Of a stretch of 29,078 bases of DNA, positions 384 through 15,249 are shown piece after piece. The DNA is from a virus. Where the stretch lies: positions 93,514-122,591 of IMG/VR virus record IMGVR_UViG_3300042879_005260. One strand, written 5' to 3'. The notes under the pieces are model-generated. The model made no database searches. It saw nothing but the letters and a program-made list of their open reading frames with translations, and had not been told where the DNA came from. Numbering within the stretch: the first letter of the stretch is position 1; every line of letters starts with the position of its first letter. The position numbers were made by a program, and so were the translations under genes.

Positions 384-791
384 ATGAAAAATCTTATAAG
401 AAAAATATTAAAAGAAGAATTTGATGATTTTGATTGGGCTGAAGAATTGGTTGGTAACACCAAACAATTTTCACCTGCTGAAGGATTTCTTTATGACATT
501 ATGCCCAATTTAAAGATGATTCCTTCAAAAAATAACCCAGGTTGGATGTTTTATAAGGATAAAAGCGGGGTTACTTTAATGGCGGATGATGTGGATAGAG
601 ATAAAAAAAATCCGATTTTATTAGTTGATTATGATGAAATTTGGTTAAAATTACGTCAAGAATTTGGCCTTAATGAACAAGAAATCAGTAATTTATGCGT
701 GCGTATGCTGGAAATAACCCATAAACGAAAGGTATTGACAGCTATTCACCGTTCCTGGAATAGATCCTGGAAGGCTGGAAATAACCCATAA
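384..791 (+). CDS. CTS-bearing putative virion protein, paralogue A
   Basis: 135 aa, no recognised function. The N-terminus MKNLIRKILKEE is a short basic amphipathic helix ending in L-K-E, like T4 capsid-targeting sequences cleaved after [L/I]-x-E. It is followed by FDDFDWAEEL, a motif echoed inside the gene at 5268. The body is about 75% identical to the next gene (823). The last shared residues are RMLEITHKRKVLTA; that DNA is the first copy of a 33-nt repeat, and the C-terminal tail beyond it is encoded by a unique spacer plus part of the second repeat. The true C-terminus is therefore uncertain. A late-type element sits at 371. Confidence 0.7.
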   Translation: MKNLIRKILKEEFDDFDWAEELVGNTKQFSPAEGFLYDIMPNLKMIPSKNNPGWMFYKDKSGVTLMADDVDRDKKNPILLVDYDEIWLKLRQEFGLNEQEISNLCVRMLEITHKRKVLTAIHRSWNRSWKAGNNP

Positions 792-806
792 ACGAAAGGT
801 ATTGAC
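707..806 (+). repeat. CRISPR-like repeat pair A (2 repeats, 1 spacer)
   Basis: Two identical 33-nt copies at 707-739 and 774-806 (GCTGGAAATAACCC ... GGTATTGAC) flank a unique 34-nt spacer at 740-773. The first copy is also the 3' coding end of the gene at 384. The second runs straight into the late element of the next gene. No cas gene is in the window. Confidence 0.6.
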
Positions 807-808
807 CT

Positions 809-818
809 GATATTTATA
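809..818 (+). promoter_or_regulatory. putative phage late promoter element (GATATTTATA)
   Basis: Directly follows the second repeat copy and precedes the ATG at 823. The stretch TGATATTTATAAAATATG is identical to that before the gene at 1395. Confidence 0.45.
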
Positions 819-822
819 AAAT

Positions 823-1224
823 ATGAAAAATCTTATAAGAAAAATATTAAAAGAAGAATTTGATGATTTTGGTTGGGCTGAAGAATTGATTGGTAACACC
901 AAACAATTTTCACCCGCTGAAGAATTTTTGTATGAAATTATGTCCAATTTAAAAATGGTTCCTTCTGAAAATTATCCAGGTTGGATGTTGTATAAAGATG
1001 AAAGTGGACTAAATTTAATGGCGGATAATGTGGATAGAGATAAAGAAAATTCGATTTTATGGGTTGATTATCACCGCATTTGGTCAAAATTAAATCAAGA
1101 ATTTGCTCTTAATACTCAGGAAATCAAAGACTTATGTATGCGTATGCTGGAAATGACCCATAAACGAAAGGTATTTACAGCTCATCATTGCAACACGACT
1201 TCAATCATCAGGAACTGGAAATGA
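823..1224 (+). CDS. CTS-bearing putative virion protein, paralogue B
   Basis: 133 aa, a tandem duplicate of the gene at 384. It has the same MKNLIRKILKEE leader with an L-K-E site, then FDDFGWAEEL and about 75% identity through RMLEMTHKRKVFTA. After that the paralogues diverge because the sequence enters spacer DNA of the repeat array. The residues after FTA (HHCNTTSIIRNWK) are therefore probably not ancestral. It is likely a packaged internal head protein by analogy with T4 IP proteins. Function unknown. Confidence 0.7.
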   Translation: MKNLIRKILKEEFDDFGWAEELIGNTKQFSPAEEFLYEIMSNLKMVPSENYPGWMLYKDESGLNLMADNVDRDKENSILWVDYHRIWSKLNQEFALNTQEIKDLCMRMLEMTHKRKVFTAHHCNTTSIIRNWK

Positions 1225-1378
1225 CCCATAAACGAAAGGTATTTACAGCCAAAGAGGGGTTTGTGAGCGCTCAACGGCAGCTGGAGATGACCCATAAACG
1301 AAAGGTGTTGACAGTCCATGACGCCTCGTTTTCATCTTGAACGCGGCTGGAGATGACCCATAAACGAAAGGTGTTGAC
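1146..1378 (+). CRISPR. CRISPR-like mini-array B (4 repeats, 3 spacers)
   Basis: 33-nt repeats start at 1146, 1214, 1280 and 1346 (GCTGGAAATGACCC ... GAAAGGTATTTAC, later copies GGTGTTGAC). Spacers are 1179-1213 (35 nt), 1247-1279 (33) and 1313-1345 (33). They are unrelated to each other and visibly richer in G+C than the surrounding genome. Every spacer starts with AG, so the repeat may be 35 nt. The first repeat overlaps the 3' end of the gene at 823, and the last abuts a late promoter element. There is no convincing internal palindrome and no cas gene here, so this is CRISPR-like in geometry only. Confidence 0.4.
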
Positions 1379-1380
1379 CT

Positions 1381-1390
1381 GATATTTATA
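1381..1390 (+). promoter_or_regulatory. putative phage late promoter element (GATATTTATA)
   Basis: Lies between the last repeat of the mini-array and the ATG at 1395. Same sequence and spacing as the element at 809. Confidence 0.45.
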
Positions 1391-14442: not shown

Positions 14443-15249
14443 ATGAACGCAAAAGGAGTTTCAACTTTAAAGATTTGTGAGCAAAAGCTTAATTATCTAA
14501 ACTATTCAATTCGAACAAGGAATAACTATCTTTCACACATAGGTAAATTTTTAAAATCGCAAGAAAAATCTGCCTTACATTTGAATTCACAAGACTTCCA
14601 GTCCTATTTAGATAATTATCAATTCACCTCAGTTTCACAACAAAATCAAGTAATAAACGCAATCAGATTCCTCTACAAATTTGGTCTTAATAAAAAATAT
14701 GATAAAGTCAGTTTCAAAAGACCTAAATCAGAAAAGAAACTACCAAAAGTAGTTGATGGGGAATTTATTAAGACTCAACTATCTAAGATTGAAAATCTCA
14801 AACATAAAGCTATACTCACCTTAACCTTTTCAGTCGGACTCAGAGTATCTGAACTAGTTAGTCTCAAAATCGAAGATGTTGATTCAAAGAGAATGCTTAT
14901 CCATATCAAAAATGGAAAAGGTAGAAAAGATAGAATTGTTCCACTTTCTGAAACTGTATTAACTCTATTAAGAGAATACTTCAAACGACATAGGCCAAAG
15001 GAATATTTGTTTAATGGTCAAAACTCAACACAGTATTCAATAGGTTCCTGTCAGAAGCTATATAAAAAATATATTGATCCTACTGGACACATTCACACTC
15101 TGAGGCATTCGTGTTTTACAAACTTATTGGAGAATGGAACAGATTTAAGGATAATACAAAAAATAGCAGGCCATTCTAATGTAAAAACCACAGAGATTTA
15201 TACACATGTAAGTACTCAGTTATTAAACAAAATTTTACCACCAATTTAA
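14443..15249 (+). CDS. XerC/D-like tyrosine recombinase, candidate cassette integrase
   Basis: 268 aa. Residues 1-95 form a SAM-like core-binding domain. The catalytic domain has R134 (GLRVSEL), K159 (NGKGRKDR), H218-x-x-R221 (HTLRHS), H244 (AGHSNV) and nucleophile Y253 (EIYTHV), so the active site is complete. The length and the absence of an evident insertion between motif II and the HxxR box argue against a classical IntI. It lies directly after array 1 and is the only recombinase in the window, on the same strand as all cassettes. That it acts on the attC-like sites is inference; phage genome integration or resolution is the alternative. Confidence 0.85.
   Translation: MNAKGVSTLKICEQKLNYLNYSIRTRNNYLSHIGKFLKSQEKSALHLNSQDFQSYLDNYQFTSVSQQNQVINAIRFLYKFGLNKKYDKVSFKRPKSEKKLPKVVDGEFIKTQLSKIENLKHKAILTLTFSVGLRVSELVSLKIEDVDSKRMLIHIKNGKGRKDRIVPLSETVLTLLREYFKRHRPKEYLFNGQNSTQYSIGSCQKLYKKYIDPTGHIHTLRHSCFTNLLENGTDLRIIQKIAGHSNVKTTEIYTHVSTQLLNKILPPI

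Follow-up and report, generated by a model that had tools for sequence, protein, structure and literature searches.

Short CRISPR (clustered regularly interspaced short palindromic repeats) arrays begin in the 3' coding ends of a family of paralogous genes in IMG/VR virus record IMGVR_UViG_3300042879_005260 (G000), a large phage of Bacteroidota. The stretch analyzed here, referred to as the window, comprises the last 29 kb (29,078 nt) of this 122,591-base record and contains two tandem arrays at positions 707-1381, with two repeat copies in array A and four in array B. We are highly confident that these are CRISPR arrays in which whole units turn over at the gene end. Sequence comparison further suggests that their repeat, and the ruler that sets their spacer length, are probably similar to those of type VI-B (Cas13b) systems. 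An initial annotation of the window had proposed either a phage mini-CRISPR array or an unknown process that duplicates a gene end and inserts foreign pieces. The first proposal is borne out by 36-nt repeats, unique spacers of about 30 nt, gene-proximal differences of whole units, degenerate terminal repeats and different spacers in near-identical relatives. The second is not needed because the repeat and spacer lengths equal those of Bacteroidota type VI-B arrays. The genes ahead of the arrays encode a common protein module and are called leader genes. The features of both arrays are as follows.

384..791, plus strand: leader gene 1, a module paralog; repeat 1 of array A forms its last codons, and its frame crosses the spacer and stops in repeat 2
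384..791, plus strand: protein of leader gene 1; no Pfam or PHROG family, core of the model at a predicted local distance difference test score (pLDDT) of ~90, last helix entering the repeat-coded end
707..742, plus strand: array A repeat 1, coding, 36 nt; RNA hairpin of -7.9 kcal/mol, z -2.8
743..773, plus strand: array A spacer 1, 31 nt; unmatched in phages, plasmids and sampled Bacteroidota genomes
774..809, plus strand: array A terminal repeat; degenerate 3' end that merges into the promoter of the next gene
807..817, plus strand: promoter-like TGATATTTATA, directly ahead of the next ATG; motif enriched upstream of open reading frames (ORFs)
823..1224, plus strand: leader gene 2, the second module paralog; repeat 1 of array B forms its last conserved codons
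1146..1181, plus strand: array B repeat 1, coding; hairpin of -7.3 kcal/mol
1182..1213, plus strand: array B spacer 1, 32 nt; exact 20-nt matches absent from viral_contigs
1214..1249, plus strand: array B repeat 2; core match
1250..1279, plus strand: array B spacer 2, 30 nt; exact 20-nt matches absent from viral_contigs
1280..1315, plus strand: array B repeat 3; core match
1316..1345, plus strand: array B spacer 3, 30 nt; located between repeats
1346..1381, plus strand: array B terminal repeat; degenerate 3' end that merges into the next promoter

The exact repeat unit is 36 nt long and extends from GCTG to CAGC (consensus GCTGGARATRACCCATAAACGAAAGGTRTTKACAGC). These boundaries were chosen because the bases outside GCTG...CAGC vary freely between copies in all arrays. 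The repeat length of 33 nt and spacer lengths of 33-35 nt given in the initial annotation are thereby revised to 36 nt and, within the window, 30-32 nt, while the start-to-start periods of 67 (array A) and 68, 66 and 66 (array B) are as described there. All six copies in the window match the 32-nt repeat core without mismatches, with zero expected from shuffles. In the whole 122.6-kb record the core is present 21 times exactly; together with one diverged copy this amounts to 22 repeats and 15 spacers in seven arrays, each oriented like the gene ahead of it. The arrays contain 2-5 repeats and, in turn, 1, 4, 2, 3, 1, 1 and 3 spacers. Including related IMG/VR contigs, 34 distinct spacers are found, 25 of which are 30 nt long (29 nt, 5; 31 nt, 2; 28 nt, 1; 32 nt, 1). 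The spacers are relatively GC-rich, as had been noted, at 42% compared with 30% for the genome. Equal-length repeats with unique spacers of similar length between them represent the anatomy of a CRISPR array. The final repeat is usually degenerate, and in arrays A and B its 3' end decays before running into TGATATTTATAAAATATG. ATATTTA occurs upstream of ORFs of this phage 36 times where 2.7 are expected (~13-fold enrichment), and TGATATTTATA, a motif strongly enriched upstream of ORFs record-wide, is likely a late promoter, making the earlier statement that the last repeat abuts a late promoter a reasonable one. A terminator-like hairpin is present 3' of the arrays at several loci and the promoter-like TGATATTTATA of the next gene at others, which would place the arrays within the 3' tails of their genes' transcripts.

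Duplication of the gene end by unequal recombination or protein diversification, with no CRISPR process involved, is highly improbable. Periods of 66 nt do preserve the reading frame and paralogs recombine, but such events would not explain spacers that are unique, higher in GC content and unmatched in the phage, one of them identical at 30 of 30 positions to a bacterial gene. There is also no sign of selection for open spacers. Past the first repeat, the reading frame enters spacer sequence and stops anywhere, and 20 of 34 spacers are open in the gene's frame compared with 19.7 expected from shuffled sequences; the arrays are therefore not coding repeats.

The same module with arrays is also found on related IMG/VR contigs, and the arrays are not identical in all relatives. 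Internal repeats resemble the first repeat of their own array (mean differences 1.58 vs 4.16, permutation p = 0.0002), reflecting repeat copying within arrays. Contigs L003 and L008 are 97.5% and 99.6% identical in the two flanks, with L003 containing, next to the gene, one 66-bp unit more than L008. Compared with sibling phages G001 and G002, the record's own array at 69 kb possesses two extra units ahead of a shared spacer. Contigs L011 and L006, with flanks 96-99% identical, have no spacer in common and differ by 132 bp. Whole units are thus gained or lost at the gene end. Gain at the leader end is the simplest reading of these alignments, although in any single pair loss would leave an identical pattern, and we infer from the comparison a polarized leader-side addition with duplication of the first repeat. 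On the minus strand of a further relative, L001, a lone degenerate repeat without any spacer is located at ~10202, where a fused 425-aa module protein ends. It is present at the same locus in near relatives of L001 and represents either the ancestral state or a decayed array.

The phage repeat shares its length of 36 nt, its GYTG...CARC ends and its 30-nt spacers with type VI-B arrays and folds into the same type of hairpin as VI-B direct repeats. A scan of species genomes (257 Gb) with the pattern GNANGGTNNNNACARC-N30-GYTG-N16-GNANGGTNNNNACARC, representing the repeat skeleton and a 30-nt spacer, identified 98 stretches, which lie overwhelmingly in Bacteroidota. All eight neighboring large ORFs tested at these loci are Cas13b, and a stricter hidden Markov model search places a Cas13b ORF at 55 of the 98 loci. 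Spacers of genomic arrays with the same skeleton (n = 699) are predominantly 30 nt long (566), followed by 29 nt (77) and 31 nt (35). Among VI-B comparison repeats taken from genomes, the nearest is that of Parapedobacter indicus, which is identical to one phage variant at 27 of 36 bases. Several observations weigh against a closer identity. A search of 84,980 species genomes revealed no host with the phage repeat. The phage repeat itself contributed to the design of the skeleton, whose positions are therefore no independent test, and the remaining positions match VI-B weakly (shuffle p ~0.02, with less support for some variants) and fall far short of true VI-B repeats. The VI-B loop TTTG is absent from the phage copies, which have AACG (or GACG) instead. 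The hairpin formed by VI-B leaders with the first repeat shows no excess over shuffled leaders in 17 arrays, and comparison of leader motifs with 40 VI-B leaders speaks neither for nor against similarity. Because of the partly circular skeleton, the weak match outside it, the missing TTTG and leader hairpin and the undecided leader similarity, we use the term VI-B-like: the phage element works like a VI-B mini-array, which is not to say that it is a VI-B system.

Searches for spacer origins covered the phage and its siblings, 50,697 phage records, 72,556 plasmids and, in ~1,950 genome searches with samples overlapping in part, Bacteroidota. No spacer matches the phage records or plasmids. Outside the arrays themselves, the phage and its siblings contain no match either, ruling out the self-origin that had been considered as a counter-explanation. 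Three spacers lack any 20-nt match in IMG/VR and a fourth matches only its own arrays. Spacer s15 of sibling phage G002 is identical over 30/30 positions to a chromosomal gene of a Chitinophagales genome (E = 9.6e-8 for that genome), which encodes a secreted beta-propeller protein (SBBP) associated with the type IX secretion system (T9SS) and adjoins a PEPCK gene. The GC content of the matched genome is low like that of the phage (30-34% in two stretches compared with 30%), and a lineage of this kind may be the host. A 26/28 match of spacer s25 in another genome is not significant once the number of genomes is taken into account, and the nine spacers of the one candidate host genome (G052) do not match the phage. 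Three results count against the reading that we favor below. Spacer s15 has the sense of the SBBP mRNA, so that a guide read from the leader side would not direct Cas13b to this transcript; for the other 33 of the 34 spacers, no significant match was obtained; and Cas13b was not found in the s15-matched genome, which is possibly incomplete.

The matched genome does contain a complete type II-C locus with cas9, cas1 and cas2, which raises the question of whether the arrays serve Cas9 and not a VI-B effector. The repeat of this locus ends in GAAAGCAATTCACAAC, close to GAAAGGTATTGACAGC of the phage, and II-C repeats of F. columnare are also 36 bp long (PMC8092290). The repeat in the matched genome, however, measures 47 nt against 36 nt in the phage and is otherwise dissimilar, and the skeleton scan yielded Cas13b loci. 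We consider a II-C function quite improbable.

Every array begins at the same codon near the 3' end of the module (...LCVRM-LEMTHKRKVLTA). The module occurs as a small stand-alone protein or as the C-terminal domain of larger proteins (424, 425 and 562 aa), and no known fold or family was found for it, including in Pfam and PHROG; an Rfam search gave no match and a more distant module search no new phage group. In the window, the first repeat of each array is the coding 3' end (MLE[IM]THKRKV) of one of two paralogs that are 88% identical over 300 nt, in agreement with the initial annotation. The gene end probably preceded the array and was the source of the repeat, a reading based on sequence and on the predicted structure of the module. 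First, the phage also encodes a diverged, array-free paralog (L024:2936-3316) that ends in ...KIFNLVHKRQVDAV, retaining HKRxV (here VHKRQV) with different codons; this is a single case in which array loss is possible. Second, differences between first repeats of clade A are mainly synonymous, with a ratio of nonsynonymous to synonymous substitution rates (dN/dS) of ~0.18 compared with 0.58 upstream, while the synonymous excess is not upheld in the small clade B (four sequences, dN/dS 1.20). Third, the last helix of the predicted structure extends into the repeat-coded residues. Short N-terminal tags (MKNLIRKIL.EE and MSKEMR.HIDKFK.FL) are common to many otherwise unrelated proteins of the phage. 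Tagged proteins are located at window positions 384, 823, 1395, 9970, 11369, 23660, 26918, 27684 and 28283, with the array leader genes bearing the first tag. We take these tags to be reminiscent of the capsid-targeting sequences of T4-like internal head proteins. In a much larger phage (L039, a 380-kb IMG/VR contig), several proteins share only the first ~22 residues of the leader protein, corresponding to the N-terminal tag.

No cas gene was recognized among the 124 ORFs of the record, which is possibly incomplete, and no Cas13b was found there or in sibling contigs; a Cas2c match in the phage (E = 0.0025) is not credible. The arrays thus lie without cas genes in a viral genome, as is typical of viral mini-arrays. 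In F. columnare, VI-B arrays acquire spacers, many of them chromosomal, through the II-C Cas1 in trans (PMC8092290), providing a precedent for the mechanism proposed here. The leader would be the 3' half of a phage protein gene, with the gene's own coding end as first repeat. During infection, host Cas1-Cas2, supplied by a type VI-B locus or in trans by a type II-C locus, would insert spacers of ~30 nt at the gene-repeat junction and copy the 36-nt repeat each time. The array would form part of the 3' untranslated region of the mRNA, and host Cas13b could process this transcript into guide RNAs because the repeat hairpins resemble Cas13b direct repeats. The likeliest benefit would be that host Cas13b is directed to RNAs of competing elements or to host transcripts and spares the phage. 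We favor, with moderate confidence, that VI-B-like mini-arrays in gene ends grow through host Cas1-Cas2 acting in trans and that a host effector reads them; that this effector uses them to the benefit of the phage we give an even chance. Cas1-Cas2 as actor, Cas13b as effector, and the purpose and targets of the arrays are the inferred parts of this scheme. In its fullest and more tentative form, which we rate slightly below an even chance, the 3' coding end of the gene family would double as leader and CRISPR repeat, protein and guide-RNA hairpin being written in the same bases. Each copy would then be a ready adaptation site for host Cas1-Cas2 and the mRNA tail a precursor of CRISPR RNAs, with arrays born from the gene, spread by paralogy and providing one phage with many independent spacer memories.

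The same observations can be read without a benefit to the phage. If the gene end resembles a leader-repeat junction by chance, occasional insertion by host Cas1-Cas2 would leave short arrays with spacers that mostly lack a known target, untargeted acquisition would be expected to produce a chromosomal spacer, and the array-free paralog indicates that the protein end exists without an array. Such a by-product is nevertheless fairly unlikely: arrays are kept in seven copies in one phage and in many more in its relatives, and the absence of self-matching spacers (0/34) suggests selection. Alternatively, the repeats could be decoys, RNA anti-CRISPRs that occupy host Cas13b (or Cas9), with the spacers mattering little. 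VI-B-like hairpins, the many repeat copies per genome in gene ends, the lone degenerate repeat of L001 and the inhibition of other CRISPR types by solitary phage repeats (PMC10651486) are compatible with this. A decoy, however, has no need of unique spacers, and turnover of whole units and the lack of phage and sibling matches are as expected if spacers are read. We regard the decoy as unlikely.

The mini-arrays extended in trans that we favor have counterparts in known systems. Short viral arrays without cas genes, same-place spacer turnover in close relatives and the avoidance of self-targeting are shared with Sulfolobales viruses SPV1/SPV2 (PMC6858448) and phage mini-arrays (reviewed in PMC11656645). 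Those arrays contain 1-2 spacers, are intergenic, have host-like leaders and mostly target related viruses, whereas the present phage has seven arrays of 1-4 spacers each; they are located in the coding ends of a gene family, their repeats are VI-B-like, and no targets were found among sibling phage contigs. Bacteroidota type VI-B systems share the 36-nt repeat, GYTG...CARC ends, GNANGGT skeleton, hairpin, 30-nt spacers and leader-end growth; they differ in having Cas13b in cis, TTTG in place of AACG, a leader that is not protein-coding and a leader-repeat hairpin. RNA anti-CRISPRs and solitary repeat units are likewise CRISPR-repeat mimics in phage genomes but are not arrays with real spacers, and the survey describing them reports units of all CRISPR types except type VI (PMC10651486). 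Arrays of huge phages (PMC7162821) are compact and phage-encoded, and some of them lack Cas genes and use host-like repeats; the portion of that source considered here does not describe them in 3' ends of a paralogous gene family. Phage mini-arrays themselves are known; relative to the literature compared, including that portion, the novelty lies in their location in gene ends, their presence as a set of several copies and the VI-B-like character of the repeat.

The record also encodes translation initiation factor IF-3, DnaJ, two Mom-like DNA modification proteins, RNA ligases, a sigma factor and a protein with a CHU_C (type IX secretion) domain. A tyrosine recombinase (integrase) is located at window positions 14443-15249 of this large phage record.

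If the proposed scheme is true, these arrays would document the birth of a CRISPR array from an ordinary gene and provide, in a natural phage, a way of testing spacer acquisition in trans for RNA-targeting systems. They would also represent natural Cas13b-like repeat variants under protein-coding constraint.
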